This document shows positions 12,520 to 38,488 of a DNA stretch of 46,154 bases, piece after piece. The DNA is from an uncultured Alistipes sp. (GTDB lineage Bacteria > Bacteroidota > Bacteroidia > Bacteroidales > Rikenellaceae). The notes under the pieces are model-generated. The model was not told the DNA's origin, searched no databases, and worked only from the letters and a program-made list of their open reading frames with translations. A program made the position numbers and the translations under genes. The stretch's first letter is position 1; each line of letters opens with the position of its first letter. The stretch is taken from assembly GCA_944320665.1 (NCBI GenBank), contig CALUII010000012.1:1-46154 (forward strand), written 5' to 3'.

Positions 12520-12562
12520 GTATAAAAACGTATACTGTGTTTAATATAATTAAGCTTACATT

Positions 12563-12592
12563 TTGTTTTATTAAAATAAGGTTGTATATTTG
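12563..12592 (+). promoter_or_regulatory. Bacteroidetes promoter for the DUF2089 gene
   Basis: TTG at 12563-12565, a 19-nt spacer and TATATTTG at 12585-12592 fit the consensus exactly. The surrounding 60 bp are very A/T-rich compared with the genes. The leader would be about 20 nt. Confidence 0.8.
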
Positions 12593-15596: not shown

Positions 15597-15632
15597 GGTG
15601 TTTTTTCGACAGGCTGGTGGGATGGAAAGAGA

Positions 15633-16145
15633 TTATTGTTTTCGGCGCACCGGGGGTATTTTGCGTCGTGTGAGCGAAAAGGCCCGGCGGTTGAAGATGA
15701 AAATCGGAAAAGTCGCACCGGCTGCCAGCATGAAGATTACGCTCAGTGATACCGTGGCGTTGAGGAAGAAGAGTTGCATGTACTGCATGCTTTGGCCCGG
15801 GTCGCCGAGCGACTGCATGAACAGGATGAGTGAAAAGACCGTCTTGTAGGCGTAGATGCCCGGGATCATGGGCAGCAGGGCCGGGATGTAGAGTACGGTC
15901 ATCGGGCAGCGCACGCCGCGTCCGAGCCAAAGGCTGCCGAGGCCGATGACCACAGCAGCGCAGAGCGATGCACTGGCGATGTCCGCGCCTCCGTAATGCA
16001 TCATGCAGAATCGCAGTGCGTGTCCCACGGCGGCGAGCAATGCGATACGCGGAAATGCGCGCATCGGGGGATCGGATATGGCCCCGAAACCGATGGCGGC
16101 GACGGCGGCCAGCAGACCGTCGAGCAGGATGTCCGTAACGATCAT
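15633..16145 (-). CDS. YjjB-like half of a ThrE-type exporter
   Basis: 170 residues with four to five membrane helices. It matches the ThrE_2/DUF3815 family, including the segment YIPALLPMIPGIYAYKTVF, which carries the conserved PxxPG. In E. coli YjjB works with YjjP as a split transporter reported to export succinate; related fused proteins export threonine and serine. Succinate is a main fermentation product of gut Bacteroidales, so succinate or a related acid is a plausible substrate, but this is inference. It overlaps the YjjP-like gene by 4 bp. Confidence 0.87.
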   Translation of the reverse strand: MIVTDILLDGLLAAVAAIGFGAISDPPMRAFPRIALLAAVGHALRFCMMHYGGADIASASLCAAVVIGLGSLWLGRGVRCPMTVLYIPALLPMIPGIYAYKTVFSLILFMQSLGDPGQSMQYMQLFFLNATVSLSVIFMLAAGATFPIFIFNRRAFSLTRRKIPPVRRKQ

Positions 16146-16909
16146 AACAGGCTGTCTTTAACCATGAGTAATGTGGCGCCGAGACCGATGGCGATGCAGA
16201 CGATCAGTAGCAAGGCATTGATCAGTCGGCTGACTCCGACCAGAACGTGCCCTTCGACGATGTCGATTACGCCGTTGATGAGCGGCACGCCCGGCACCAG
16301 AAACAGCGGGCTGGTGGCCAGTGCGATTTGGGCCGTGCAGTCGAAGCGCAGGGCGGCCGAGGCGCAAAGTGAGGCGATAAAGGCGGCGGCAATGACAATC
16401 AGATAGTGGTTCAGGCCGTGGGCTTGCATGCGTTGTTTGGCGGCGAAGCCCACGAGTGTGGCCGTGAAGACGATGGCCGAAGCCGTGAGGTCGCCGCCGA
16501 AAAGTCCGCAGAACGAGGCGTTGGCCAGACCGACGGTCAGCAGCACGAAGATCGGATCCATGCGTGGTTTGTCGATCAAACGGTCGAACCGTTGGCGGAT
16601 CTCGTCGAGCGAGAGTTTTTCGTCGACAGCATCCCAACTCAGGGCGCTGAGGTCCGAGTTGCGTTCGAAACTGATGGGAAGGGCCGGAATACCGACAACG
16701 CGTGTAAGGGCTTCTCCGCCTTCGGTGTCTCGGGCCGTGAGGATGATGTTTTTCAGCGAGCTTGACAGTTGGATGTCGATACCCTGTGAAGCCCCGAGGC
16801 GTTGCGAGTTGCGGAATACGCGCGAGGTGTGGACGCCCGACCCGAGCAGGTAGGAGGCATACGTAGCGATGAAGTCGAGTGTGTCGTGCAGTTCGCGTTG
16901 AGTCTTCAT
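16142..16909 (-). CDS. YjjP-like half of a ThrE-type exporter
   Basis: 255 residues. A cytosolic N-terminal region of about 115 residues holds the family motif YLLGSGVHTSRVFRNSQRLG; about five membrane helices follow, including FLVPGVPLINGVIDIVEGH with the PGxPxxxG signature of the ThrE/DUF1212 family. It should form a heteromeric inner-membrane exporter with the downstream YjjB-like protein. It is the first gene of a five-gene minus-strand operon. Its ATG lies only 8 bp from a good -7 box, implying a very short leader. Confidence 0.88.
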   Translation of the reverse strand: MKTQRELHDTLDFIATYASYLLGSGVHTSRVFRNSQRLGASQGIDIQLSSSLKNIILTARDTEGGEALTRVVGIPALPISFERNSDLSALSWDAVDEKLSLDEIRQRFDRLIDKPRMDPIFVLLTVGLANASFCGLFGGDLTASAIVFTATLVGFAAKQRMQAHGLNHYLIVIAAAFIASLCASAALRFDCTAQIALATSPLFLVPGVPLINGVIDIVEGHVLVGVSRLINALLLIVCIAIGLGATLLMVKDSLL

Positions 16910-18942: not shown

Positions 18943-18972
18943 CAAAAGTAGAAAAATTTCGGCACTCTGCAA
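18943..18972 (-). promoter_or_regulatory. Consensus promoter of the SRP RNA gene
   Basis: On the minus strand TTG (18972-18970, in a run of T), a 19-nt spacer and TACTTTTG (18950-18943) fit the Bacteroidetes promoter. Transcription would start around 18939-18936, right at the GGGAAAG that begins the RNA. Confidence 0.85.
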
Positions 18973-19095
18973 AAAAATGATCTTTTTTTTGTGCCGGAGC
19001 CGTTTCGGGGCCTCGGTGCGGGCCCGTGCCGAAGGTAATGCCGGGACGTTGCGGGAAAAAGGTGCCGCGGATGCAGGCGACTGCGAATTTTCTTG

Positions 19096-22920: not shown

Positions 22921-23042
22921 CGCTGCAAACTGGACACTGTGTTAAAAATGACGGGGTGTGCTTCGAAAGAGGTGCATTCCGTCTTGTTTTGTGTGTAATC
23001 GGATTGTAATTGTATTTTGATGTGAAAAAAACAACGACAATT

Positions 23043-23072
23043 TTGTTTTGTTCAGAAATAGTTTTATTTTTG
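23043..23072 (+). promoter_or_regulatory. Promoter of the putative surface nuclease/uptake operon
   Basis: TTG (23043-23045), a 19-nt spacer and TATTTTTG (23065-23072) fit the Bacteroidetes consensus in a strongly A/T-rich stretch. The leader is long, about 125 nt, and ends with a T-run (about 23178-23184) shortly before ATG 23204, which leaves room for leader control. Confidence 0.75.
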
Positions 23073-23203
23073 TCTATCTGAAAGATATAGTACGTTAGGT
23101 TAAAAAATGAGCATTCGGTGCTGCTGCATGATGGCCCGAAATATGAATGAGCGTTTGAGTAATAGTGTGATAGACTCTTTTTTTATTTAATACCTTATTA
23201 TTT

Positions 23204-25657
23204 ATGAGAAAGTTTAACCTATTCCGATTTATGCTCGCCGCCTTGTCTCTGGTGGCGACGACAGCAGCCTTTACGGGTTGTTCGGATGACAAGGACGACG
23301 AATTCGTATTCCCGTCCCTCGAGGTGTCGGCTACGGAGTTGACGTTCGATGAAAAAGGCGGTGCCAAGACCTTCGATATTACGACCGAGGGCAAGTGGAC
23401 GATCTCGGGTGCCGAGAGCGATTCGTGGCTGGCTATTACTCCGGCTCGTCAAGGTGCGGGCAACCAGCAGATTACGGTGACGGTTGCTGCTTCCGAAGAG
23501 GCTCACAGCGCCGAGTTGACCATTACGTGCTACGGTACCTATTACGGTATTGACAAGGAGATGGGTACCAAGACCGTGAAGATTACCCAGACCAAGGGCG
23601 GTGAGGCTCCCTCGACCGAGGAGTTCTACTACAACAACTTCGACAAGGAGGAGGCCACAGAAACCTACGGATCTGGCAAGTCGTATCCCTATCTTGATCA
23701 GTTCGACGGTTGGCAGAATGCTACCGGAACCGGTATTGCCGAGGTGACTTATGAGTACAACGGTATGAGTGTCCGTTCGAATTCGACGTCGAACAGCAAC
23801 TATTCGGACTACGAAGGTTCGGGTATGAACAATCTCTTCTTCGGTAACGGCGGTACGTTCACCATTCAGAAGATTGCCGTGACGACGACGAACCTCTGCC
23901 TGACTTTCGGTGCCGAGCGCTATGTATATGGTGCCGAAGATAATACGTTTGTGATCGGCGACCTGAACGTGCAGCTGAGTGCCGACGGTACCAACTGGTC
24001 CGACCCGATCGAGTATGCTTTCCCGGCCGGTGCCAATACGAACGGCCGCTGGAACCTGGCTACGGCCAACTTCACGCTGCCCGACGGCACGACGACGCTC
24101 TACATTCGCTATACGACCAAGGTGGCCAGTGCACACCGTGTTGATGACGTTCGCCTGACGGGCGGCGTCGGCGGCCAGCAGATCACCTTCAATGGCGGTG
24201 GCAGTGGCGAGACCCCCTCTGGCGAGGAGAAGGCCATTACGATTCCCGAAATCATTGCAGCTCTGACGTCGACGGAGACGGTGCTCGATGCACAGTACGA
24301 CCGCGTATTCGAGGCCGTTGTCGTGACCGACAAGGCCGGAGGCAATGTGAATAACAACAACTTGCAGGTGATGACTCCCGGTGCAACCGAGGCCGGTAAC
24401 GGTATTACGCTCTTTGGCAGCGGTGTGACCAATCCCAACGATGCAAGCTTTACGTTCGCTAAGGGCGACCGTGTGAAGGTGACGCTCAAGGCCGGTCAGG
24501 CCCGTATTGTTAACTACAATGGCCTCTATGAGGTGACGGGCGACAAGAATGCTGCATGGGTAACCATCGAAAAGGTCGGCACGGAGACGATCACTCCGAT
24601 CGTGGTCGATGCCAAGGATCTGGCGGCATACCAGGCTATGGTAGTGACGCTGAACGACATGACGGCTCCGACGACGGCTGCCGTATGGTGCGAGGCCGAG
24701 AAGTATGGCCAGCATACCTTTACAACGGGCGGTCAGAACGTGACAGTATTTGTCCAGTCGAACATGCCGGGTCTGGTCAATACGCAGTTCATTGCCGGTG
24801 CAACGGGTTCGATTACGGGCTATGCCACGGTTTACAAAGGGAATGCCCAGATCTGCCCGCAGACCCCGAGCGATGTGGCTGCTTTCATGAGTGCTGCCCC
24901 CTCGATGCTTGTTTCACCTACTACGTTGTCGTTCAGTGCAACCGGTGATAGCAAGACGGTTTCCGTGACTAAGATCAATGCTGATGATACCTACACGATC
25001 GAGGCTACGGCCGACAACGGCTTCACGGCTTCGGTCTCGGGTACGACTGTGACGGTAACAGTCGGTGCCAACGAAACTGAAAATACGGTCTCGGGAACGC
25101 TGACCGTGCAGCTGATGAAGGAGGGGGCGGCTGTCGATACGAAGACCGTCACCCTCTCGCAGGCGGCCCCTATTGTGGGTAATGCCGTGGCCATGACCAA
25201 GACGGACATCGAGAATGCATCGCGTGTGAGCAACTATGCGAATTTCACGGTAACTGCCGCTGACGGTAGCGTCTGGACCGGTTTCGGTATGGGATTCGGT
25301 TTTTCCAATGCGGGTAACTTCATGCCGTTGCAGTTGGGCTGGACTACCGATACGAGCAAGGATGCTTCGAAGTCCTATGTGAAGGTTCCTACCTTGACCG
25401 GTAATGCTACGAAGGTAACGATTGTTCCTAATGAAAAGACGATTGCCGAGCGTGCGTTCGTAGTGCTGCCGGCTGACTATGTCTACGGCGGCGAGGATGC
25501 CGAGACGGTGATTGCTTCGGCATTGGCTTCGGTACCTACGACCGGAACGACCGATCCACTGGTGATTGATCTTACGGGCAAGAATCTGAAGGATTTCATT
25601 ATCCGTTCGGTAGGTGGTGCTTGTTATATTGACTCTATTACGGTCGAGTACGAATAG
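23204..25657 (+). CDS. BACON/DUF5689 surface lipoprotein
   Basis: 817 residues. The signal peptide ends in a lipobox with Cys26 followed by SDDKDDE, an acidic stretch of the kind that sends Bacteroidetes lipoproteins to the cell surface. Domains in order: BACON-type beta-sandwich (about 38-131); a jelly-roll region resembling choice-of-anchor or carbohydrate-binding modules (about 140-325, starting FYYNNFDKEEATETYG); a DUF5689 OB-like domain (about 345-460); a second OB-like region (about 465-570); another BACON-like sandwich (about 580-670); and a C-terminal beta domain. No catalytic motif is seen, so a binding role is likely. It heads a five-gene run with two nucleases and a TonB receptor. 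GC content appears a little lower than in neighbouring housekeeping genes. Confidence 0.82.
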   Translation: MRKFNLFRFMLAALSLVATTAAFTGCSDDKDDEFVFPSLEVSATELTFDEKGGAKTFDITTEGKWTISGAESDSWLAITPARQGAGNQQITVTVAASEEAHSAELTITCYGTYYGIDKEMGTKTVKITQTKGGEAPSTEEFYYNNFDKEEATETYGSGKSYPYLDQFDGWQNATGTGIAEVTYEYNGMSVRSNSTSNSNYSDYEGSGMNNLFFGNGGTFTIQKIAVTTTNLCLTFGAERYVYGAEDNTFVIGDLNVQLSADGTNWSDPIEYAFPAGANTNGRWNLATANFTLPDGTTTLYIRYTTKVASAHRVDDVRLTGGVGGQQITFNGGGSGETPSGEEKAITIPEIIAALTSTETVLDAQYDRVFEAVVVTDKAGGNVNNNNLQVMTPGATEAGNGITLFGSGVTNPNDASFTFAKGDRVKVTLKAGQARIVNYNGLYEVTGDKNAAWVTIEKVGTETITPIVVDAKDLAAYQAMVVTLNDMTAPTTAAVWCEAEKYGQHTFTTGGQNVTVFVQSNMPGLVNTQFIAGATGSITGYATVYKGNAQICPQTPSDVAAFMSAAPSMLVSPTTLSFSATGDSKTVSVTKINADDTYTIEATADNGFTASVSGTTVTVTVGANETENTVSGTLTVQLMKEGAAVDTKTVTLSQAAPIVGNAVAMTKTDIENASRVSNYANFTVTAADGSVWTGFGMGFGFSNAGNFMPLQLGWTTDTSKDASKSYVKVPTLTGNATKVTIVPNEKTIAERAFVVLPADYVYGGEDAETVIASALASVPTTGTTDPLVIDLTGKNLKDFIIRSVGGACYIDSITVEYE

Positions 25658-25685
25658 TCTTGTGAATAGTATGCTCCAGTAATTT

Positions 25686-25715
25686 ATCCCCGGCGGAGCT
25701 GATTCCGTCGGGGAT
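25686..25715 (+). other. Intercistronic hairpin between the BACON lipoprotein and nuclease genes
   Basis: A 12-bp stem (25686-25697 with 25704-25715, one G-T pair) with a 6-nt loop lies 28 bp after the first gene. It has no T-run, so it is more likely a partial terminator or RNA-processing/stabilising element that would lower expression of downstream genes relative to the first. Confidence 0.6.
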
Positions 25716-25748
25716 GATTATCTGAACACAAAGAGTTGATAGAGAGTT

Positions 25749-26930
25749 ATGTATCGAAAGGTTTTTGAGAGATTGTTTGCTTGGTGTTGTTTGGTGTTTC
25801 TACTTTCCTGCAGCAAGGACGATGGCACGGGAAGCGGGACGGCTACGGCTGCTTTTAAGACCGAAACCGTCAATTGTGAAACGACCGTTACTCAGATGTT
25901 GCTCTCCGGTGGAGCCAATCTGACCTGTATCGCAACAATTGTTGAGGGGGAAGATTGGGTGTCGTTTGCAGCAACGCAAGTGCAGACCGTTTGGGAGGGG
26001 AGTCTCACCCCGGTGGTTTTTGTCTATCTGCAGAAAAATACCGCACCCGAGGAGCGTACGGCACGTGTGCAGGTGGCTTTTTCGAATGGCGATCGCACCG
26101 AATTGACGCTCACTCAATCGGCCTATACCTCTTCGGCTCTTTATGACCGCGAATGGGCCGAGCAACCTGGATACGTGGCGCAATCCGATTACATCTATAA
26201 AACCTACTTCACGACGCTGGCCGAATCGTCACGCCGCGTGCGCAACTATTCGATTTGCTACGATACGCAGAAGCGTGTGGCTCGCTGGGTGGCTTATCCG
26301 CTCCATACGTGTTACACGATGCCCAGCTTAGATCGTACGAATGCGTGGGCCTACGATCCCAACAATCAGTTGCCCGAAATTCCGCAATCCGTACAGCAGT
26401 ATGTGATCGACAGCTACGGTACGGGGTATGCCCGCGGCCACCAGTGCCCGTCGGCCGACCGCTACAGTACGATTGCGACCAACGAGATGACCTTCTATGC
26501 CACCAATATGATGCCGCAAGAGAGTAAGTTCAACAGCGGCGTCTGGGGAACCCTCGAAAACAAGGTGCGCGCCAACATCGTGCGCGATACGCTCTATGTG
26601 GTGACGGGTACATGGTTTGGCGATTCGAAGACCATGACCGATCGCAAGGGAAACCGCATCGGTGTGCCATCGGACTGTTGGAAGGTATTGCTGCGGACGA
26701 AAAAGGGAAATTCGGGTAAGCGCGTGCAGGAGTGTACGGCCGACGAATTGATCGGCATCGGATTCTGGATGCCCAACGCTTCGTCAACGGGTGGAACTCC
26801 GGCACAGTATGCCGTCTCGATCGCCGAGGTGGAGGAACGTACGGGATTCACCTTCTTCCATAACCTGCCCGAGGAGGTGGCGACCGCGGTCAAACAGCAG
26901 AATAACCCGTCGGACTGGAATATAAACTAA
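25749..26930 (+). CDS. NUC1-type DNA/RNA non-specific endonuclease lipoprotein
   Basis: 393 residues. The signal peptide has lipobox LLSC (Cys21) followed by SKDDG, pointing to a surface-exposed lipoprotein. About 40-130 is a BACON-like beta-sandwich. About 150-380 is a NUC1 (beta-beta-alpha metal) nuclease: GYARGHQCPSADRY with the catalytic His231 in a variant DRGH motif (Asp replaced by Ala), followed by FYATNMMPQESKFNSGVWGTLE, which supplies the metal-binding Asn and the downstream Glu. The family cuts single- and double-stranded DNA and RNA. Other NUC1 members tolerate changes at the first position of DRGH. It lies between two lipoprotein/enzyme genes of a TonB-receptor operon, so extracellular nucleic acid is the likely substrate. 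Confidence 0.9.
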   Translation: MYRKVFERLFAWCCLVFLLSCSKDDGTGSGTATAAFKTETVNCETTVTQMLLSGGANLTCIATIVEGEDWVSFAATQVQTVWEGSLTPVVFVYLQKNTAPEERTARVQVAFSNGDRTELTLTQSAYTSSALYDREWAEQPGYVAQSDYIYKTYFTTLAESSRRVRNYSICYDTQKRVARWVAYPLHTCYTMPSLDRTNAWAYDPNNQLPEIPQSVQQYVIDSYGTGYARGHQCPSADRYSTIATNEMTFYATNMMPQESKFNSGVWGTLENKVRANIVRDTLYVVTGTWFGDSKTMTDRKGNRIGVPSDCWKVLLRTKKGNSGKRVQECTADELIGIGFWMPNASSTGGTPAQYAVSIAEVEERTGFTFFHNLPEEVATAVKQQNNPSDWNIN

Positions 26931-26948
26931 CTTTAAAACCATAACCTG

Positions 26949-27983
26949 ATGAAAAGACTGCTTTTTACCGGCTTGTTCGTGCTGCTGTTGGCGGCCGGAT
27001 TTGCCCAGAAGCCTTACAAGGTGATGTTTTACAACTTCGAGAACCTCTTCGATACGATCAACGATCCCGACGTACTCGACGAAGAGTTCACTCCCGAGGG
27101 CCCCAAAAAGTGGAACTCGGTCAAGTACGAACGCAAACTCGGTAATCTCGAACGCGTGCTCTTCGACATTGCAGCCATCGATCGTGACTATCCGATTGTG
27201 ATCGGCGTCTCGGAGATCGAGAACCGTTCGGTGATGGAGGATGTGGCCGCACGGCCCAAATTGGCCCCGGCGCACTACAGCATCGTGCATTACGACTCGC
27301 CCGATGCCCGAGGCGTGGATGTCGGATTCTTCTATCGCCCCGACGTCTTCCAGCTCGAAGGCAGTGCCCCGATTCCCTACACGCTGGAGAGTGATCCCGA
27401 TTTCAAAACACGTGACATCGTCACGATGTGGGGAACAATCGACGGTGCTCCGTTCTATTTCATGGTTGCGCACTGGCCGTCGCGTTTGGGTGGTAAGGAG
27501 GCTTCGGCTTACAAGCGTATGCGTGCGGCCGAGATCATGCGCCATGCGGCCGATTCGGTGCTGCAGCTCAACCCCCAGACACGTGTGGTGATGATGGGTG
27601 ACTTCAACGACGACGCTACGGACGACAGCATTACCGAAGTGCTCGGCGCCAAGGGGGACATCCGCAAGCTGGAGTCGGGCGATTACTACAATCCCTTCAT
27701 CAACGTGCTGAAGGCCGGATACGGTACGCTGGCCTATCAGGACATGTGGAACCTCTTTGACAACGTGGTCGTATCGGCCAATCTGGCCACGGGTGCCGAT
27801 GGCGGATGGCGGATTGTCAAGGCATCGCCCAAGGCCCGTTTCTATGGCAACATCTTCAAACGTAACTACATGATTCAGCAGGAGGGCCAGTATAAGGGGT
27901 ATCCGTTGCGTACGTTCGTGGGCAATAATTTCCAGGGCGGATTCAGCGACCACTTCCCGGTCTATATCTGCATCGAAAAGTAA
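26949..27983 (+). CDS. Exported endonuclease/exonuclease/phosphatase-family hydrolase
   Basis: 344 residues with a signal peptide cleaved near FAQ (residue 20); no lipobox, so periplasmic or secreted. The EEP fold motifs are in order: MFYNFENLFD (Asn), VIGVSEIENR (catalytic Glu), VAHWPSRLGG (His), MMGDFNDD (Asp, Asn) and GFSDHFPV (Asp-His pair). Family members hydrolyse phosphodiester or phosphomonoester bonds in DNA, RNA, inositol phosphates or sphingomyelin. Beside a NUC1 nuclease the best guess is cleavage of oligonucleotides produced at the surface, but the substrate is not fixed by sequence. It starts 18 bp after the nuclease gene and lies 24 bp before the TonB receptor. Confidence 0.9.
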   Translation: MKRLLFTGLFVLLLAAGFAQKPYKVMFYNFENLFDTINDPDVLDEEFTPEGPKKWNSVKYERKLGNLERVLFDIAAIDRDYPIVIGVSEIENRSVMEDVAARPKLAPAHYSIVHYDSPDARGVDVGFFYRPDVFQLEGSAPIPYTLESDPDFKTRDIVTMWGTIDGAPFYFMVAHWPSRLGGKEASAYKRMRAAEIMRHAADSVLQLNPQTRVVMMGDFNDDATDDSITEVLGAKGDIRKLESGDYYNPFINVLKAGYGTLAYQDMWNLFDNVVVSANLATGADGGWRIVKASPKARFYGNIFKRNYMIQQEGQYKGYPLRTFVGNNFQGGFSDHFPVYICIEK

Positions 27984-28007
27984 CTTCATCCATAAAACGA
28001 AAAACAT

Positions 28008-30821
28008 ATGAAGATGAAATTTTTACTCTTATCGTTACTCACGTTGTTCTCGGCGGAGGCTTTCGCCCAGGCGGACGGCGGTATCCGCGGGCAGGTTGTT
28101 GCCCGTGACGGCCGTGCGGCGTTGAGCAACGTGCAGGTGGTTGTCGAACCGTCGGGTGTGACGGCCGTGACGGACGAGCAGGGCCAGTTCCAGCTCGGCG
28201 ATCTGCCTGCGGGCAATTATCAGGTGCGATTCCTTACGCCGGATTATGAGGAGTTGATCCTCCATGTGCGTGTGTCAAACGGCGTGAAGGATATCCGTTC
28301 GGTGGTGCTGACGCCGGATATGGCCGTTCCGGTCGATGATTCGGTGTTTGCCGAATTCGATACCGATGTCGAGAGCGACGGGGGCTCGGAATTGCCGTCG
28401 TCGCTGGGCGCTTCGAAGGATCTGTTCAACAGCATTGCTTCGTACAAGTTCAGTGAAATGCGCTTCAACGTGCGCGGTTACGATTCGCCCTACACGGACG
28501 TCTATCTGAACGGCATCCGTTTCAATGACGCCATGACGGGCTACGGTCCCTGGTCGTTGTGGAGCGGATTGAACGACGCGACACGCAACCAGGAGGCTAC
28601 GGCCGGCCTTACCGCGACGGATTACGGCGTGGGTGGCATCGGCGGTTCGACCAACATCAATGCCCGTGCCTCGCAGGTCCGTCAGGGCTTCCGTGCCAGT
28701 GCCGTGACGGCTAACTCGATGTATCGCTTCCGACTGATGCTTTCGTATGCCTCGGGTGCGCTGGATAACGGATGGTCCTATGCCTTCTCGTTCTCGACGC
28801 GTCAGGGTGGTAACGATTATGTCGACGGTGTCTACTACAATGCCTACGCATATTTCGCTTCGGTCGAGAAGTTGCTTGGGGCCGAGCGCAACCACCGCCT
28901 GGGTTTGACGGTGATGGGAGCCCCGACGCAGCGCGGTGCTCAGCAGGCCTCGACGCAGGAGGCCTACGACCTCTTTGGTAACAACTACTATAATCCGAAT
29001 GTGGGTTATCAGATGGGCAAATTGCGCAATTCACGTGTGCGCGACATGCACGAGCCGATCGTGATGCTGACCTATAATTGGGATATCGACGAGGCAACGC
29101 GTCTGACGGCTGCCACGTCGCTGCGCTTCGGCTATAATGGCTATTCGGCCCTCACGTGGAAGGACGGTCCCGACCCGCGTCCGGATTATTACCGCAAATT
29201 ACCCTCGTACTACATCTTCAAGTGGGCGCAGGGTATTACGCCCGAGGGTGACGCCACCTGGTGGCAGCAGGCCATGGAGGCCGGAAGCCAGTGGGACGGC
29301 ATGATGGATTGGGATGGATTCTACCAGCAGAACTATACCAATACGCCCGATCCCGGTACGGCCGAGTCGACGTATGCCGGAACAATGCGTCCGTCGAATA
29401 CGATCATCGAGGAGCGCCATACGGATCAGCTCGACTATAACTTTGTGGCGAATGTCTCGCACCTGTTCGAGAACAACTCGCGTTTGGTGGGCGGCGTGAA
29501 ACTGCGTATCAACCGCACGGAGTATTACGACGAGGTGAAGGATCTGTTGGGTGGCGATTATTGGTACGATATCGACAAATTTGCTCTGCGCGATATGGGA
29601 TCGAGTACGATTGCCTACCAGAACGATCTGGACTACTACTTGCAGAACGGCCACGCACGTTTTGCCAAAGAGGGCGACAAGATCTCGTATGATTACTATG
29701 CCAACCTGCGTGATGCACGTCTGTGGGCCATGTATCAGATTGCGTTCGGAGGCTTCTCGATGAACGTCGGTGGCGAGGTGGGGTATGCAGCCATGTGGCG
29801 TGACGGCCGTTGGCGCAAAGGCCTCTTCCCGAACGACTCCTACGGCAAGTCCGAAACACTCGATTACCTGACGTATCGCGTGAAGGGCAATTTCGAATAT
29901 CGTTTCTCGGGTGCCCACTCGCTTACGGCCGGCATCACGATGATCCAGGATGCTCCGAAGTTCCAGTCGGCTTTCGTTTCGGCACGTACGCGCAACGAGG
30001 TGACTCCCGGTCTCTCGGCTGAGAAGATTTTCGGCGCCGAGTTGACCTACAACCTCAATCTGCCATATCTGCGTGCCCGACTGACGGGTTACTACTCGCA
30101 GATGAACGATCTGTCGAAGGTGATTTCGTTCTACGACGATACGCAGAATTCGTTCATGAACTTCGCCATGAGCGGTATCGACAAACGCTACTATGGCGTG
30201 GAGCTCGGTCTGAATGTGCCGATCTGGAACGGTATCTCGTTTGAGGGCGGTCTGAGCTGGGGCAACTATCAGTACACGTCGAATCCCGAGTTCACGAGCA
30301 TCGTCGATAACAGCGCTACGGTGCTGGTTAAGGACCGTGTCTATTGGGATGGCTTCCATGTGGAGAGTACGCCGCAGTTTGCTGCCAGCATCGGTCTCGA
30401 CTACCGCGGCCCGCACATGTGGTTTGCTTCGATCGAGTACAACATCTACGACAACATCTATCTCTCGATGAACCCGTTCTATCGTACGGGTACAGCCGTT
30501 GAGTCCTACATTCTGGCCAACGGTGGAGCCAACGATGTGGAGCAGATCAATTACATCCGCCATCAGGAGAAATTCGGCGCTTACGGGGTGCTCAATGCCA
30601 GTGTCGGCAAGAACTGGTCGATCGCACGCCGCTATACGCTCGGCTTCAGCCTGCAGATGCGCAACCTGCTCAACAATCAGGATATCCGCACGGGCGGTTA
30701 CGAGCAGATGCGTATGTATCGCAGTCGTACGGCCGATGGTACGTTCTATACGCGTTTCCCGTCGAAGTACTTCTATCTGCTGGGGACTACCTATTATCTG
30801 AATGTCTATTTCCGCTTCTGA
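28008..30821 (+). CDS. TonB-dependent outer-membrane receptor
   Basis: 937 residues. A signal peptide (to about 21, SAEAFAQ) is followed by a carboxypeptidase-regulatory-like domain (about 25-105, GIRGQVVARDGRAALSNVQVVV). A plug domain follows (about 125-230, with FNVRGYDSPYTDVYLNGIRFND and GGIGGSTNIN), then a roughly 700-residue, 22-strand barrel ending in YYLNVYFRF. It should import a bulky ligand across the outer membrane using TonB energy. It is not followed by a SusD gene; a DUF5689 lipoprotein occupies that place. Its neighbours are a nuclease and a phosphoesterase, so an oligonucleotide, nucleotide or phosphate-bearing ligand is inferred. Confidence 0.92.
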   Translation: MKMKFLLLSLLTLFSAEAFAQADGGIRGQVVARDGRAALSNVQVVVEPSGVTAVTDEQGQFQLGDLPAGNYQVRFLTPDYEELILHVRVSNGVKDIRSVVLTPDMAVPVDDSVFAEFDTDVESDGGSELPSSLGASKDLFNSIASYKFSEMRFNVRGYDSPYTDVYLNGIRFNDAMTGYGPWSLWSGLNDATRNQEATAGLTATDYGVGGIGGSTNINARASQVRQGFRASAVTANSMYRFRLMLSYASGALDNGWSYAFSFSTRQGGNDYVDGVYYNAYAYFASVEKLLGAERNHRLGLTVMGAPTQRGAQQASTQEAYDLFGNNYYNPNVGYQMGKLRNSRVRDMHEPIVMLTYNWDIDEATRLTAATSLRFGYNGYSALTWKDGPDPRPDYYRKLPSYYIFKWAQGITPEGDATWWQQAMEAGSQWDGMMDWDGFYQQNYTNTPDPGTAESTYAGTMRPSNTIIEERHTDQLDYNFVANVSHLFENNSRLVGGVKLRINRTEYYDEVKDLLGGDYWYDIDKFALRDMGSSTIAYQNDLDYYLQNGHARFAKEGDKISYDYYANLRDARLWAMYQIAFGGFSMNVGGEVGYAAMWRDGRWRKGLFPNDSYGKSETLDYLTYRVKGNFEYRFSGAHSLTAGITMIQDAPKFQSAFVSARTRNEVTPGLSAEKIFGAELTYNLNLPYLRARLTGYYSQMNDLSKVISFYDDTQNSFMNFAMSGIDKRYYGVELGLNVPIWNGISFEGGLSWGNYQYTSNPEFTSIVDNSATVLVKDRVYWDGFHVESTPQFAASIGLDYRGPHMWFASIEYNIYDNIYLSMNPFYRTGTAVESYILANGGANDVEQINYIRHQEKFGAYGVLNASVGKNWSIARRYTLGFSLQMRNLLNNQDIRTGGYEQMRMYRSRTADGTFYTRFPSKYFYLLGTTYYLNVYFRF

Positions 30822-30846
30822 TCCGGAGACACCGATTTATTTTTGA

Positions 30847-32064
30847 ATGAAGATTATGAAAACGACGAAAATAGTTCTGATGGCTCTGGCCGCTGCGCTG
30901 ATGGCCGGCTGCTACAACGACTTCGACAATCCGGCCCCGGCGCCCGTGTGGACCGATGCCCAGGTCGAGGCTACGGGAGCCAAACTCATCTCGATTGCCG
31001 AGGTAAAACAGATCTTTATCGATCAGTTCGGCAGTCTGAGCGGTACGGGCAGCAATTCGAGTTGGAATGATACGAAATACTATCAGTTCGACCAGGATCT
31101 CTACATTAAGGGCAAGGTGATCTCGAACGACCGTGAGGGCAATGTCTACAAATCGCTCTTCCTGCAGGACGAGACGGCGGCCATCGAGATCCGTCTGACC
31201 AACGGAAACTTCCTCACCTACCATATGGGTGAATACAACGAGGCGAAGACCGAGATCCCCTCGCAGTGGGTCTATGTGTTGCTTCGTGGACTCTATATCG
31301 GCAACTACCGCATGATGCTCAGCATCGGCAACGGTCCGACGGATTCGTACAATGCCGTGGGCGAACATAAGTTCTATGCCAATTCCAACATCGAACTGGC
31401 GGACGAAATCGCTGCGCATGTGCTCCCGGGTGAGCCGGCTACACTGGTCGTAGGGGAAGACATCAAGGTGGTGAACAGTTCGAACTATACGGAGTTGGGT
31501 GAGGCCGATTTCGGCCGTCTGATCCGTTTCGAGGGGCTGGAGTGCTACTATGCGGGTGTCGATACGCAGGAGTCGCTCTATCCGGAGACCTATCCCGATT
31601 ACGTGAAACCGGCTCCGCTGCACAACGGTTCCTACGAGCAGATCTATCCGAGCTGGATCTACACGGACATTCGCCCGATTGTGAACAAGCCGTGGTATGA
31701 ATGGGCTTTCAGCCACAATACGACCAACTTGTATGGGTCGGTATGCTTTGTGTACAATCCCAATCCGCAGTATACGTCGGACAAGGGTGTCTACATGGTG
31801 CGAACGAGTGGATATTCGCGTTTTTCGGGCCGCCGTGTCGTGAAGGACGGGGCAGTGGGTACCATTACGGGTATCTACGGTATCTATTCGAAGGAGAGCA
31901 ACTATTCGGGTGGCTCGCGTGATTATGCGACTTATCAGTTGACCTTGAACCGTTATGCGGATCTCGAGTTCGCTGAGGAGGATTTCCTGACGGCAGCCGA
32001 AGTGGAGGCTCTGACGCCGGCCGATTCCTATGTGACGCCCGATGTCGAAGGTGAGGTGGACTGA
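30847..32064 (+). CDS. DUF5689 lipoprotein, possible SusD-like partner of the TonB receptor
   Basis: 405 residues. The signal peptide ends in lipobox LMAGC followed by YNDFDNP. The DUF5689 domain fills most of the protein: SIAEVKQIFIDQF, then an OB-like strand pattern YIKGKVISNDREGNVYKSLF, LQDETAAIEIRL and WVYVLLRGLYIGNY. The C-terminal half repeats a second OB-like unit (YGSVCFVYNPNPQYTSDKGVYM, GAVGTITGIYGIY). No enzyme motif is seen. It lies 25 bp after the TonB receptor, in the position SusD usually takes, and shares DUF5689 with the first gene of the operon. ATG 30847 or 30856 may be the start. A ligand-capturing role is inference. Confidence 0.85.
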   Translation: MKIMKTTKIVLMALAAALMAGCYNDFDNPAPAPVWTDAQVEATGAKLISIAEVKQIFIDQFGSLSGTGSNSSWNDTKYYQFDQDLYIKGKVISNDREGNVYKSLFLQDETAAIEIRLTNGNFLTYHMGEYNEAKTEIPSQWVYVLLRGLYIGNYRMMLSIGNGPTDSYNAVGEHKFYANSNIELADEIAAHVLPGEPATLVVGEDIKVVNSSNYTELGEADFGRLIRFEGLECYYAGVDTQESLYPETYPDYVKPAPLHNGSYEQIYPSWIYTDIRPIVNKPWYEWAFSHNTTNLYGSVCFVYNPNPQYTSDKGVYMVRTSGYSRFSGRRVVKDGAVGTITGIYGIYSKESNYSGGSRDYATYQLTLNRYADLEFAEEDFLTAAEVEALTPADSYVTPDVEGEVD

Positions 32065-32177: not shown

Positions 32178-34235
32178 TCAACGTCTGTTCCAGATCGAGG
32201 AGGTCTGGTAGAGGCTGATGGCGCGGTTGAGGTGCGTCTGGTCGATTGTATCGGTCGGTTGCATGGCAAACGGCTCTTCTGCTGTCGGGGTCAGGCGATA
32301 CTGCTCCGCACGACGCACCGGTGAGAGTACCGTGAAGAGGTCCCCTTCGAGATAGCCCAAATCCTGGTACGTGGCGATAAAGGCCCGCGGTTCGAAATCC
32401 TCGGCCAAAGCATCGCGGCCGTAGAAATACGAGTCATACTCGAGTCCCATCAAGGCGAAGAGCGTCGGCATGAGGTCGATCTGCGAGACCGTATGATCTA
32501 CGATGCGCGGCTCGATCAGGGACGGAGCGTAGATCAGGGCCGGGATGTGGTATTTGTCGAGTGGAATTTCGGTTTTACCGGCACTTGAGGCGCAGTGGTC
32601 GGCCGTGACGACGAAGATGGTCTGATCGAACCACGGTTGACGGGCCGCCTCGCGGAAGAATTCGCCCAAGGCATAGTCGCTGTACATCACGCCACCGGCG
32701 CGTGATTTGGCGTCGTGCGGGATGGGAATGCGACCGTCGGGATAGGTGAACGGGCGATGGTTGCTGACGCTCATCACGTGGGCAAAAAAGGGCTTTCCCG
32801 ATGCGGCATCTTCACCCAGCGTGCGGATTACCTTGCGGTAGGCATCCTCGTCGCATACACCCCAGATATTGGCAAAGGTGATCTCCTCGGGGGCATATTG
32901 CCGCTGGTCTACGATGTCGTAGCCATTCCCGCCGAAGAAGGTCTCCATGTTGTCGAAGTAGCTGTTGCCGCCATAGAAGTAGCGAACCGTGTACCCTTTA
33001 TCGCGGAGCATGGCGCCGGTCGAGTGCATGTTGGCATTGTTCGGTCGTTTGATGATGCTCTGTCCGGGGCAGGGAGGTAACGAGAGGGTTACGGCCTCCA
33101 GACCGCGTACCGTGCGGTTGCCCGTGGCAAAGACCCGGTCGAAGGCCAGACTGCGTTCGTAGAGTGAGTCGAGCACCGGAGTGATCCCGTCGTGTGAGCC
33201 GAAACGCTCCATATAGGAGGCGCTCATGCTTTCGAGCGTAATCAGCACAATGTTGTAACGCGGCGCGTCGGCAACGCCTGCGATGTGACGGCGGTTTGTA
33301 TCTTCGCTGCCATACAGCGCATGGACCGTGGCTTCGGCCTCGGCCTGGGGAAGGGTCAGATAGAACTGCTCGTAGTCAAGTTCGTTTTTCAGAAAAGCGT
33401 CGTAGAATTTGTAGAGGCCGTTGGCCTGGAGCTCATTTACGTATACGTTTTCGCTGTTCTGAAACCGGGTGTTGAACCCCAGTACCAGGACTGCAAGTAT
33501 GCCTGCTGCTGCGTAGATAGGGGTTGCAACGCATTTCCATCGCCAGCCGTAGAGGGCGTCGTATCGGGCGAGCGGACGACGGAAGAGCAGCCACGTGATC
33601 AGCAGAGTCAGGAGCAGCAGGCCGAGCATCATCGGTACCACGGGGTACGACTCCATGATGTTGCCTACCACCTCGTTCGTATAGACCAGGTAGTCGACCG
33701 CAATGAAATTATAGCGTACGCCAAATTCACTCCAGAAGAAGTATTCGCACAGTCCGTTGAAGAGGATCAGTCCGACGTAAAGAACCAGGAGTATGCCGAG
33801 CCAGCTGCGGCCCCAGCGTTGTCGAAGAGACGGTACGAAGAGGCGCAGGGCAAAACTGATGGCCCAGTATCCGATCAGTCCGGCGGCGATGGCGGGAACT
33901 ACACTTCCGTATTCGTCGAAGATCGTGTGCCCGAAGGCAACGTAACAGAATGCGCCGATGAGTACGGCCAGCAGCACATATCCGACCGGTTTGCCGAACC
34001 GGGCCTTGCCGATGCTCATGACGTAGAGCCACAGGAAGACGAAGCAGATCGTGGCCATGCAGAGGTCGTTAACGGCACCGAGCAGGAAGATCTGGAGCCA
34101 TTCGCCGAAGCGAAAGCCGAGGTCGGTCGTCTGTTCGTTGAAGAGCAGAATGATGCGGACAAGGGTCTCGACGGCAAGGGTCAGAAGTGCCAGACGTGCG
34201 TAGAGCCGTCCGAACAGGTGGATGCTTTCTTTCAT
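32178..34235 (-). CDS. LTA-synthase-like sulfatase-superfamily phosphotransferase
   Basis: 685 residues. Five N-terminal membrane helices (first about 210 residues) precede a periplasmic alkaline-phosphatase-fold domain (about 300-650). Metal and catalytic motifs: NIVLITLESMSASY (Glu), ATGNRTVRGLEA (nucleophilic Thr), NHRPFTYPDG and FVVTADHCASSA (Asp-His). This is the layout of LtaS/OpgB-type enzymes, which move phosphoglycerol or phosphoethanolamine between lipids and glycans. Bacteroidetes have no lipoteichoic acid, so the acceptor is probably lipid A, an outer-membrane glycan or a periplasmic glucan. It is a single-gene unit; a near-consensus promoter lies at 34293-34322. Confidence 0.88.
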   Translation of the reverse strand: MKESIHLFGRLYARLALLTLAVETLVRIILLFNEQTTDLGFRFGEWLQIFLLGAVNDLCMATICFVFLWLYVMSIGKARFGKPVGYVLLAVLIGAFCYVAFGHTIFDEYGSVVPAIAAGLIGYWAISFALRLFVPSLRQRWGRSWLGILLVLYVGLILFNGLCEYFFWSEFGVRYNFIAVDYLVYTNEVVGNIMESYPVVPMMLGLLLLTLLITWLLFRRPLARYDALYGWRWKCVATPIYAAAGILAVLVLGFNTRFQNSENVYVNELQANGLYKFYDAFLKNELDYEQFYLTLPQAEAEATVHALYGSEDTNRRHIAGVADAPRYNIVLITLESMSASYMERFGSHDGITPVLDSLYERSLAFDRVFATGNRTVRGLEAVTLSLPPCPGQSIIKRPNNANMHSTGAMLRDKGYTVRYFYGGNSYFDNMETFFGGNGYDIVDQRQYAPEEITFANIWGVCDEDAYRKVIRTLGEDAASGKPFFAHVMSVSNHRPFTYPDGRIPIPHDAKSRAGGVMYSDYALGEFFREAARQPWFDQTIFVVTADHCASSAGKTEIPLDKYHIPALIYAPSLIEPRIVDHTVSQIDLMPTLFALMGLEYDSYFYGRDALAEDFEPRAFIATYQDLGYLEGDLFTVLSPVRRAEQYRLTPTAEEPFAMQPTDTIDQTHLNRAISLYQTSSIWNRR

Positions 34236-34389: not shown

Positions 34390-37227
34390 CTATTCAGCCG
34401 TCGTCTGAGCTGCTGCGGGACGCATGACGATCTTAGCCTCGTTGCCGTCAGCCAGGATCTTGCGTGCGAGTGCCTGAACATCTGCGTTCGTCACCTGCTG
34501 CAGTGCCTGCTCGTAGTTCGAAAGGTAATCCAGACCGTTCGTGTAGTACTTGTCGATGTAGTTCATCCACGTGCCGTTCTCCTCGAGACCGTTCTTCCAC
34601 TCCTTGGCCAGATACTCGCGCGTCTTCTCCACATCTTCGGTCAGCGGGCCCTCTTCGGCGATCTTGTTGAGCTCGGCCATGATGTCACCCATCAGTTCGT
34701 CGGCCATCTGCTCGTTGGTGTCGAAGGTGATGATCAACGTGTAGTTCTCGTCCGGAACATAGGTCGTCATGCCTCCGACCTGCACGCCGTACGTGCCGCC
34801 CTTCTCCTCACGGATCGACTTCAGGTAGCGGGCGTTGAGTGCCTGCGAGAGGAACTCCATCGTCAGACGGTTCTCGATCGTGTAGGGCATCTTGCCCGTG
34901 AAGTAGTACCATACCGAGACCTTCGGCTGCTGCATCGGCGTGGTGAAGTCGTTGACCACCTTGCCCGTCACGGGGTGTACGCCGTCGTCGGTGAACGAGA
35001 GCTTCTTCTTGGAGGTGGGCAGCGAACCGATGTACTTCTCGACCAGCGGACGGAGCGTCTCGAGGTCGACGTTGCCTACGAACGTGAAGGTGAAGTTGTC
35101 GGCATTGCCGTAGAGTGCATCGTGGATAGGCTGCAGTTCGGCGAACTGTACTCCGTCGAGGATCTCAGGCGAGAGCATCTGTTTGCGCGGGTTGTTGCCG
35201 TAGACCGTCTCCATGATCTTGTCCTGGATGATGTAGTCGGGGTTGTTGAGCATGTTCTCGACATTGGCGCGCACCATTTTCATGAAGGTGTCGTAGTCGG
35301 ACTCACTGTAACGCGGCGACGTGAAGTTCAGATAGACCAGCTGCAGCATCGTCTCCAGATCTTTCGGCGAGGCCGAACCGCTCATGCCGTGCGTATAGCT
35401 GTTTACCGAGTAGCCTACGCTGGCAGCCTTGCCCGAGAGTTGCTTCTGCAGGTCGATGGCCGAGAATCTGTCTACGCCCGAACGATCCAGAATCTGCGGC
35501 ATCAACAGAGCTGTGTAGTACTGGTCGTCGCTCAGAATCGACGTACCGCCTTCGCCCTTGATCGAGAGGCGTACTTCGTCCTTGTTGAATTCGGTCGGCT
35601 TGACGATGATGCGCACGCCGTTCTTGAGCGTCCATTCCGTCGTGCCGAGCACGTCGTTGTGGGCCTCCTTCTTTACGCGCGAACCTTTCAGCGCCTTTTC
35701 GTTGGCGATCAGCGGTTCCTTAACCATATTGTCCTCATAGGGTTCAACCTCGGCCTCACGGGCGGCAACGATCATTGCCTGCAGCTCTTCGGCCGTCGGA
35801 TTGACCAGACCTTCCTTTTCGGGAACGTTGGCGATTACGACCCAGTTCTTGGGTTGGAGCAACTGCTGGCAGGCCATGTTCACGTCGTTGAGCGAGATGA
35901 GCTTGAGCAGCGTGCTGTCGAGTTTCCATTCGGTCTCGGCATCGGGTACCGGATAGCCGTACTGATAGTTGCGGACCATGCGTGCGTGGAAATCGCCGTT
36001 GCGACGGTCGTCACGGCTGGCGTACTGACGCTCAATGGTGCGCATCAGGTCGTTCTGTGCGCGTTCGAACTCTCCGGCCGTGAAGCCAAAGCGACGCGTC
36101 TTCTCCATCTCGGTCAGCACGGCCTGGAAACCTGCGGGCAGTTTACCCTCCTGCGTGCTGACATTGAAGGCCGTGACTTCGAGCGTCGGGATGATGCCGA
36201 CGTAGCCGTCACCCATTCCGGCACCGAGGAACGGAGCGTCGGGCTGCTGTGCGATCTCGGCGAAGCGGGCATTCTGCATGGTCGTGGCATAGAGAATCAG
36301 CAGATCCTGCATCTCACGCAGTACCAGTCCGTTTGCCTCTTTGGGCAGTGCGGGGCGTTTGATGTAGATCGAGGCCGAGGTCGAGGTCATCTCCGGATCG
36401 GCGAAGACCGAAATGATCGGTTCGTCGTTGTCGGGCACGACGATTACCTCCTTCTGCGGAGCGTCGGCTGCCGGAGCCGGGATGTCGGACATCAGCTTCT
36501 TGAGGTCGCTCTCGATGCGATCCACGTCGATGTCACCGACCACTACGATGGCCTGATAATCGGGACGATACCACGTGTGGTAGAAGTTTTCGAGCGTATC
36601 GTAATCGAAGCTTTTCAGCCCCTCGAGGTAGCCGATGACGTTGCGGTGCTCATACTTCGTACCTTTGGCGAGGTGCTTGATCATGTTGGTCTGCGAACGC
36701 CACATGGCACCGTCGCGCGTACGCAACTCCTCCATGATCACGCCACGCTCCGAGTCGATCTCTTCGGGCTGCAGGGCGATGAAGTGCGACCAGTCGTGCA
36801 GGATGAGCATCGCCGTATCGATGATGCCCTGGCGCGACGTCGGCACATCCTCGATCATGTACGACGTTTCGTCCTGTGTGGTATAGGCGTTGAGGTTGAT
36901 GCCGAACTTCACGCCAATCGTCTCCAGATAGTCGATCATCTGCTTTCCGGGCAGGTTCTTCGTGCCGTTGAAGGCCATGTGCTCCAGGAAGTGGGCCAGA
37001 CCCTGCTGTTCGTCATTCTCCTGAATGGCGCCCACGTTGTGCAGGATGTAGAAACTTGCCTGACCTTTCGGTTTCTCGTTGTGGCGGATGTAGTAGGTCA
37101 TCCCGTTGTCGAGCTTGCCCATCCGAATCTCCTTGTCCATCGGGATCGGCTCCATTGGATTGAGCTGTGCCTGTGCGTTCGTGAAGAAGAGGAACGCGGC
37201 GGACACGGCCAGCAGTAGTTTTTTCAT
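34390..37227 (-). CDS. Two-domain M16 zinc metallopeptidase (PqqL-like), exported
   Basis: 945 residues with a signal peptide (LLLAVSAAFLFFTNAQA, cleaved near 20), so periplasmic or outer-membrane associated. The inverted zinc motif HFLEH is at 79-83 with the downstream Glu in EEIDSERGVIMEELR. A second, inactive M16 half follows (about 510-930, with TPMQQPKVSVWYYFTGKMPY), giving the clam-shell chamber of the pitrilysin family that degrades peptides. ATG 37227 starts the signal peptide; in-frame sequence upstream to 37431 is a run-on with no signal. It has its own terminator. A 747-codon open frame on the opposite strand is a composition shadow. Confidence 0.92.
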   Translation of the reverse strand: MKKLLLAVSAAFLFFTNAQAQLNPMEPIPMDKEIRMGKLDNGMTYYIRHNEKPKGQASFYILHNVGAIQENDEQQGLAHFLEHMAFNGTKNLPGKQMIDYLETIGVKFGINLNAYTTQDETSYMIEDVPTSRQGIIDTAMLILHDWSHFIALQPEEIDSERGVIMEELRTRDGAMWRSQTNMIKHLAKGTKYEHRNVIGYLEGLKSFDYDTLENFYHTWYRPDYQAIVVVGDIDVDRIESDLKKLMSDIPAPAADAPQKEVIVVPDNDEPIISVFADPEMTSTSASIYIKRPALPKEANGLVLREMQDLLILYATTMQNARFAEIAQQPDAPFLGAGMGDGYVGIIPTLEVTAFNVSTQEGKLPAGFQAVLTEMEKTRRFGFTAGEFERAQNDLMRTIERQYASRDDRRNGDFHARMVRNYQYGYPVPDAETEWKLDSTLLKLISLNDVNMACQQLLQPKNWVVIANVPEKEGLVNPTAEELQAMIVAAREAEVEPYEDNMVKEPLIANEKALKGSRVKKEAHNDVLGTTEWTLKNGVRIIVKPTEFNKDEVRLSIKGEGGTSILSDDQYYTALLMPQILDRSGVDRFSAIDLQKQLSGKAASVGYSVNSYTHGMSGSASPKDLETMLQLVYLNFTSPRYSESDYDTFMKMVRANVENMLNNPDYIIQDKIMETVYGNNPRKQMLSPEILDGVQFAELQPIHDALYGNADNFTFTFVGNVDLETLRPLVEKYIGSLPTSKKKLSFTDDGVHPVTGKVVNDFTTPMQQPKVSVWYYFTGKMPYTIENRLTMEFLSQALNARYLKSIREEKGGTYGVQVGGMTTYVPDENYTLIITFDTNEQMADELMGDIMAELNKIAEEGPLTEDVEKTREYLAKEWKNGLEENGTWMNYIDKYYTNGLDYLSNYEQALQQVTNADVQALARKILADGNEAKIVMRPAAAQTTAE

Positions 37228-37346
37228 AGTTTTGCTGTTTTTGAAAGGTTTTACGTTGTTGTTTCTGTCTGTTTTAATTCTTAATGGCTTGAGGCAGCAT
37301 CTTTTCCCGCGCGGCCGGAGGCTGGAGTTCGTCTCCGAGGCGAGAT

Positions 37347-37583
37347 TCAATCCTCCCTTGAGGGGGCGTCCTCCATCTCTTCGGGGCGGTATTCGATGAT
37401 GTCGCCCGGTTGGCAGTCGAGTTCGCGGCAAATGGCTTCGAGCGTCGAGAACCGGATGGCTTTGGCCTTTCCGTTCTTGAGGATCGAGAGGTTGGCCGGC
37501 GTGATGTCGATGCGCTCCGCCAACTCGCCGAGCGAAATCTTGCGCTTGGCCATCATGACGTCTATGTTGATAATTATCGACAT
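37347..37583 (-). CDS. YozG/Xre-type helix-turn-helix regulator
   Basis: 78 residues. One HTH_3/Cro-CI domain fills the protein: ISLGELAERIDITPANLSILKNGKAKAIRFSTLEAICRELDCQPGDIIEY. This wording matches the YozG-like group usually encoded next to DUF2975 membrane proteins, as here (28-bp gap on the same strand). It ends with an acidic tail. It likely controls its own operon. Starts at 37583 or at the internal MM pair (about 37556) are possible. Confidence 0.87.
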   Translation of the reverse strand: MSIIINIDVMMAKRKISLGELAERIDITPANLSILKNGKAKAIRFSTLEAICRELDCQPGDIIEYRPEEMEDAPSRED

Positions 37584-38357: not shown

Positions 38358-38387
38358 CAAAGTTAGAAATAGATTTCTGAAAAACAA
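38358..38387 (-). promoter_or_regulatory. Consensus promoter of the DUF2975-HTH operon
   Basis: On the minus strand TTG (38387-38385, within TTTG), a 19-nt spacer and TAACTTTG (38365-38358) fit the Bacteroidetes pattern exactly. The leader is about 20 nt. Confidence 0.8.
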
Positions 38388-38488
38388 ATAATATTTATCG
38401 TTTTTCGATAAATTTTTTGTTTGTGAGGATAAAATAGAAGTGAAATCTCGTTTTTTGCCTTGTATGTCGCTATTTTTTGAGTCCGGGT

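Follow-up and report, generated by a model that had tools for sequence, protein, structure and literature searches.

The genes considered here, g1 to g5, form a candidate DNA-import operon on contig 12 of a draft genome of an uncultured Alistipes sp. (1.84 Mb in 87 contigs, 88.5% complete). The window, that is the whole stretch of DNA analysed, comprises 46,154 nucleotides of this contig. The five genes and the promoter motif in front of them are the following:

23042-23072, + strand: Bacteroidetes-type promoter motif TTTG-N-TANNTTTG, found by motif scan, ending 131 bp upstream of g1
23204-25657, + strand: g1, predicted lipoprotein of 817 residues with DUF5689 (open reading frame, Pfam, lipobox-like motif)
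25749-26930, + strand: g2, predicted NUC1 (Endonuclease_NS) lipoprotein with the motif YARGHQCPSA (open reading frame, Pfam, lipobox-like motif)
26949-27983, + strand: g3, predicted exported EEP-family (Exo_endo_phos_3) enzyme lacking a lipobox (open reading frame, Pfam)
28008-30821, + strand: g4, predicted TonB-dependent outer-membrane receptor with a CarboxypepD-type N-terminal domain (open reading frame, Pfam, predicted structure)
30847-32064, + strand: g5, predicted DUF5689 lipoprotein and partner of the receptor (open reading frame, Pfam, lipobox-like motif, model)

Gene products of the operon

As the preliminary description had it, five same-strand genes follow a promoter motif. All five open reading frames are intact, lie on the + strand and span positions 23204-32064, with intergenic gaps of 91, 18, 24 and 25 bp (g1/g2, g2/g3, g3/g4 and g4/g5, respectively). 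The layout is operon-like and, judged by their sequences, the genes are real and intact. The motif at 23042-23072 is of the Bacteroidetes promoter type; four such motifs were found in the window versus 0.18 expected, a number never reached in control shuffles. The other three lie at 12562-12592 (+), 18943-18973 (-) and 38358-38388 (-).

The product of g4 contains CarbopepD_reg_2 (1.5e-10) and CarboxypepD_reg (3.3e-10) domains, while Plug was seen below threshold only (21.6 versus 23.9 bits). Single-sequence searches found no solved relative, and a profile search matched the N-terminal domain only. The protein is classed as a TonB-dependent receptor, as had been described, because its predicted structure (mean pLDDT 84.7) matches such receptors; the best PDB match is PqqU (E 2.8e-28), followed by Fiu and YncD, with FhuA and BtuB also listed, and the model has the plug and barrel fold of these proteins.

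The g5 protein has DUF5689 (1.5e-26) as its sole domain and contains no DUF5017. Its model is of high predicted quality (pLDDT 91.3), and a Foldseek comparison with the PDB found nothing at E 0.001. The list of 50 matches, at E 0.014-0.083 and TM scores below 0.24 to the query, contains 48 proteins described as handling DNA or RNA, including lysyl- and aspartyl-tRNA synthetases, MCM/CMG, Teb1, HIN domains and SSB; the other two are inulosucrase and Keap1. Among 60 receptor-partner proteins, three match the OB-fold model tRNA_anti-codon in Pfam and one carries a lamin-tail domain. This suggests that the DUF5689 lipoproteins g5 and g1 perhaps adopt an OB fold and bind nucleic acids; OB folds bind sugars and proteins too. 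In g1, DUF5689 was identified (1.7e-14), a profile comparison tied it to the DUF5689 region of the flavobacterial partners (E 2.7e-12), and a lipobox-like motif is present, so that the earlier assignment holds in these respects; the BACON domain that was also named stays below threshold (21.3 versus 25 bits). Solved relatives of g1 found by sequence are weak, namely a GH16 entry (E 0.004) and thermonuclease (E 0.072 or above), and were taken for chance matches.

The two remaining genes encode the enzymes of the operon, and both earlier family assignments were borne out. The g2 protein matches Endonuclease_NS (4e-40, 138.3 versus a gathering cut-off of 23 bits), has the RGH catalytic motif, and has a nuclease as its closest solved relative (2o3b, E 7.8e-24); by sequence it belongs to the NUC1 DNA/RNA non-specific endonucleases. 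The g3 protein matches Exo_endo_phos_3 (8.2e-113, 377 versus 27 bits) and its catalytic-type residues are invariant across 19 aligned relatives, placing it in this EEP family with a predicted activity. Sequence searches found no solved relatives of g3 or g5.

Lipobox-like motifs occur in g1, g2 and g5, which agrees with their earlier description as lipoproteins, and are absent from g3 and g4. They are followed by acidic residues, which are the export signal of surface lipoproteins in Bacteroidota, and we infer a surface location for these three proteins. No SusD family member, as already noted, was found among g1-g5 by Pfam at E 0.01, nor did Pfam match a carbohydrate-active enzyme or recognise a nucleoside or phosphate uptake gene in this set.

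The operon is flanked upstream by a DUF4293 gene and downstream by a sulfatase-family gene on the opposite strand (32178-34235, -), whose product has a membrane-like N-terminus; an M16 peptidase gene follows (34390-37431, -).

Orthology with the Riemerella receptor and its distribution

In Riemerella anatipestifer ATCC 11845, markerless deletion of either RA0C_RS04915 or RA0C_RS04920 is reported to bring natural transformation below detection (PMC8459023). The former encodes a predicted outer-membrane protein with a carboxypeptidase-regulatory-like domain and the latter a protein with DUF5689 and DUF5017; it was proposed there that RS04920 binds DNA and that RS04915 carries it across the outer membrane (PMC8459023). 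Reciprocal best matches and a receptor tree indicate that g4 is orthologous to the Riemerella receptor.

The comparison was made with a genome (G405) that we take to be that of ATCC 11845. Here the receptor gene is preceded by RecA at a distance of nine genes and by ComEC at four, a count that includes one 152-residue open reading frame without Pfam match, and these distances agree with the tags RS04870, RS04895 and RS04915. The positions of HHH (528 kb), DUF1343 (1.90 Mb) and DprA (1.065 Mb) agree roughly with the published tags. An EEP gene falls at RS04910, and the gene after the receptor encodes 467 residues with DUF5689 and a sub-threshold DUF5017. By gene order, the receptor of this genome is identified as RA0C_RS04915. 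The gene RS04910 itself is absent from the Table 2 mutants and from the Table 1 rows consulted in PMC8459023.

A search of this genome with g4 gave the receptor as the top match (304.9 bits, 29% identity over nearly full length; next match 96.9 bits), and the reverse search of the window's genome returned g4 (307.9 bits; next 145.6). In a FastTree of 96 receptors, rooted at the midpoint, a clade of 82 with support 0.992 contains those of the window and of Riemerella and none of 14 added paralogues. A shorter relative of the receptor (814 residues) is encoded elsewhere in the window's genome (contig 14, 27658-30102), with a divergent DUF5689 gene nearby. For the lipoprotein partners, the pairwise similarity of g5 to RS04920 is weak (E 8e-07), while a profile-profile comparison of the g5 family with the flavobacterial-type partners gave E 4.2e-69, some rows of the g5 profile bridging both groups. 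DUF5017, which g5 lacks, was found in only 17 of the 60 receptor partners and is regarded as accessory, not as defining.

The same report calls homologues widespread in Bacteroidetes, yet gives Flavobacteriaceae as the only group with a homologue of RS04915 (PMC8459023). In our phylum sample, a search with a receptor alignment gave matches at 1e-170 or below in 44 of 296 genomes (the window's included), every one in the window's own class; in two further genomes the gene is in two pieces, and the best match outside the class is at 1.1e-56. Within the order Bacteroidales, 200 of 393 genomes match at 1e-170 or below. Relaxing the limit to 1e-100 gives 204; the additional four were left out of the count, because their scores are near that of the paralogue in the window's genome (1.4e-119). 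In the family containing Kaistella, 193 of 197 genomes have a receptor match at 1e-40.

Gene order around the receptor

Searches with g3 gave matches at 1e-20 in 58 of 61 related genomes, paralogues included. Within the genus, regions chosen by their EEP gene were obtained from 24 of 36 other genomes, and g2-g3-g4-g5 occur in the same order and on the same strand in 17 of the 24. The remaining seven comprise one region with g1-g3 (L049), one with g3 alone (L050) and five with a distant EEP gene, in one case beside a g1-like gene. Sequence matches to g1 occur in only 7 of the 17 clusters, which makes it the operon's least conserved gene. In other families, likewise chosen by EEP, a receptor gene with an adjoining DUF5689 gene was found in 6 of 16 regions.

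To avoid choosing by nuclease, 140 loci were selected by their receptor. Twenty come from the phylum sample, and 80 are named records, mostly of Flavobacteriia, that scored best among 585 confirmed matches; the order contributes 40, each from a different family. A same-strand DUF5689 gene, detected with our own profile, follows the receptor in 137 of the 140 (19/20, 78/80 for the best 80 of 585, and 40/40). Pfam identified DUF5689 in 59 of 60 downstream proteins examined, three loci having yielded no downstream protein under the length rule. An EEP gene lies within two open reading frames upstream of the receptor in 115 of 137 loci (17/20, 69/78 for the best 80 of 585, and 29/39); three loci that end short of this region were left aside. 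The EEP gene and the receptor are divergent in 111 of these 115 and co-directional in the window's genus. The residues expected of this family are largely kept in 145 adjacent EEPs: N-EN in 140, E-E-N/T in 143, HWPSR-like in 137, GD-N in 145 and SDH-P in 142. A cluster of receptor, DUF5689 and EEP genes was also seen in a record titled Candidatus Nitrotoga (L146, CALQCV020000061.1), probably a misbinned Bacteroidota contig.

Each of the 17 clusters of the genus, which were chosen by EEP, has a NUC1 gene beside the receptor; one lies within three open reading frames of the receptor in 6 of the 140 receptor-chosen loci (2/20, 0/80 for the best 80 of 585, and 4/40). In all four Porphyromonas loci examined, the receptor is followed by two DUF5689 genes and then by NUC1, and Pfam confirmed five of five NUC1 neighbours checked. 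Ten near-receptor proteins from eight loci without EEP include one endonuclease I and nine non-nucleases; L246 has a BipA-type GTPase. The two nuclease genes of L266 (10444-11940 and 12393-13277) are endonuclease I with DUF4493, which immediately precedes the receptor gene and shares its strand, and NUC1, beyond it on the other strand. That nucleases from three Pfam families recur, in varying positions, beside one receptor favours a nucleic-acid substrate. NUC1 and endonuclease I belong to one superfamily, so that the number of recurring nuclease folds is two. The substrate first suggested for the operon is in line with this, as receptor, DUF5689 partner and nucleases stay together far beyond the genus; of the conservation expected at that time, the core of receptor, DUF5689 and nuclease genes is kept in relatives, and all five genes together are found in part of the loci only.

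From 146 EEPs found next to a receptor, 82 were placed in a tree together with 28 others; the best split of adjacent and other EEPs misplaces 19. This tree sets g3 in another branch than the EEP neighbour of the Riemerella receptor, and orthology between these two was dropped. In one locus (L120), a second, divergent EEP gene at 15557-16579 lies beyond the five-gene cluster; in the tree it joins the neighbours of Riemerella type, which would fit a later arrival of the EEP inside the operon.

A DNA-import model and its alternatives

Taken together, these data make it probable that the operon encodes a TonB-powered outer-membrane importer of DNA, with a core that is the Bacteroidales form of the Riemerella transformation pair. 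We propose that the surface lipoproteins g5 and g1, perhaps through OB folds in their DUF5689 parts, would grip extracellular DNA, which the lipoprotein nuclease g2 would cut. TonB energy would then drive the DNA across the outer membrane through g4, and the exported nuclease g3 would trim it in the periplasm, either to a strand for ComEC or down to nutrients. Passage of DNA through g4, and each of these steps in the window's organism, is inferred; ComEC and nutrition may both be destinations of the imported DNA. By sequence, the core of receptor and DUF5689 protein is as in Riemerella, and the variant in the window comes from a different bacterial order and has an extra nuclease and lipoprotein and an EEP of another branch. 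More tentatively, and with somewhat more doubt than belief, this could be extended to the class: Bacteroidia would own a secretin-free, TonB-powered DNA import consisting of the receptor, a DNA-catching DUF5689 lipoprotein and nucleases of at least three families, with the five-gene form of gut-type Bacteroidales serving feeding as well as gene transfer.

Several observations weigh against import of DNA by this operon. Locus L049 keeps g1-g3 in the absence of g4 and g5; its three genes adjoin an M16 peptidase gene, which points to an operon that has lost part of its genes. EEPs from the operons of the window's genus and four other loci (L120, L121, L053 and L239) group with 24 non-adjacent EEPs (support 0.844), and the fold similarities seen for g5 are weak, with E 0.014 at best and TM below 0.24. 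Homologues of ComEC, DprA, HHH and DUF1343 are all present in the window's genome, but of 14 genomes used as controls, 10 or 11 also give matches to the ComEC, DprA and HHH families; the presence of ComEC and DprA proves little, because both families occur in most controls. No receptor match was found at 1e-60 in a genome (G923) that we take to be Porphyromonas gingivalis ATCC 33277. Among 26 genomes of its genus, the receptor is found at 1e-160 or below in 18, weakly in two and not in six. P. gingivalis is naturally competent and requires ComEA and ComEC, and how DNA reaches its periplasm 'remains unclear' (PMC11532111). This species may use another route or a strongly diverged copy, or the receptor module may not be the general route. 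No transformation of Flavobacterium johnsoniae was obtained in the conditions used; this species has some pilus homologues and, according to the authors, possibly another uptake system (PMC7965970). Finally, mutation of tonBA or tonBB reduces transformation in R. anatipestifer, which in itself speaks for the model, but the authors ascribe the tonBB effect to iron shortage; an iron defect is reported as absent from the tonBA mutant (PMC8383284).

A locus for feeding only, in which fragments of DNA or RNA are broken down for phosphate, nitrogen and nucleosides and none reaches ComEC, would account for two nucleases sharing an operon with a receptor and for a NUC1 enzyme that would cut DNA ahead of import, and it fits the apparent ability of competent P. 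gingivalis to manage without the receptor. Transformation of Riemerella columbina is higher without peptone or phosphate (PMC7965970), which may be read in the same sense. We nevertheless consider it unlikely, as Riemerella needs both genes of the pair for transformation (PMC8459023) and the operon contains no recognised gene for nucleoside or phosphate uptake. The operon had been described as a machine resembling a polysaccharide utilisation locus that imports nucleic acids for nutrition; its layout and probable substrate were well chosen, whereas the nutritional purpose is only a possibility, and the one line of experimental evidence on relatives of the core pair concerns a need in transformation (PMC8459023).

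Less likely still is another TonB ligand, such as a metal chelate, phosphoester or sugar, with an indirect loss of transformation in Riemerella and nucleases that are mere bystanders. It would agree with the iron-mediated influence of TonBB proposed by the authors (PMC8383284) and with the siderophore, PQQ and copper receptors that are the best structural matches of g4, although any TonB receptor would be likely to give such matches. Other phosphoesters, too, are substrates of EEP enzymes. Against it stand the recurrent nuclease neighbours of three Pfam families, the DNA- or RNA-handling descriptions, albeit of weak matches, of 48 of the 50 proteins listed for g5, and the three of 60 partners matching a nucleic-acid-binding OB-fold model.

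If DNA import by this operon is correct, many gut and oral bacteria would take in DNA by a path that accounts of gene transfer and of the fate of extracellular DNA do not yet include. The operon bears on the open question of how DNA passes the outer membrane of Bacteroidota: it firmly extends the Riemerella pair into Bacteroidales, and the EEP and NUC1 genes recurring beside the pair are candidates for the missing strand-processing step.

Relation to known systems

In the literature searched, where a single paper names DUF5689, no account of the five-gene operon was recognised beyond PMC8459023 and its sister papers. The statement that a named system with this exact set was not known can be kept in that sense, but it missed the tie to the Riemerella transformation pair.

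SusCD polysaccharide utilisation loci likewise have a CarboxypepD-type receptor beside a surface-type lipoprotein and degradative enzymes; the window differs from them in that g1-g5 match neither SusD nor a carbohydrate-active enzyme. EndA of pneumococcal competence is, as proposed for g2, a non-specific surface nuclease in DNA uptake, but acts in a Gram-positive cell without outer membrane. With the extracellular DNases ExeM/NucH, g3 shares a match to NF033681 over the EEP region, and its membership was ruled out at 24.4 bits versus an NCBIfam cut-off of 300. OB-fold and lamin-tail domains are companions of ExeM, and one of the 60 DUF5689 partners carries a lamin-tail domain.

The closest relative is the Riemerella pair RA0C_RS04915/RA0C_RS04920 (PMC8459023). 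The EEP gene there is divergent and of another branch than g3, and none of seven Weeksellaceae loci, including that of Riemerella, has NUC1 within three open reading frames, whereas the window has g2. The window moreover has an extra DUF5689 lipoprotein, and its g5 lacks DUF5017. Shared by both is the arrangement of an orthologous receptor followed by a DUF5689 lipoprotein, with an EEP gene adjoining the receptor.

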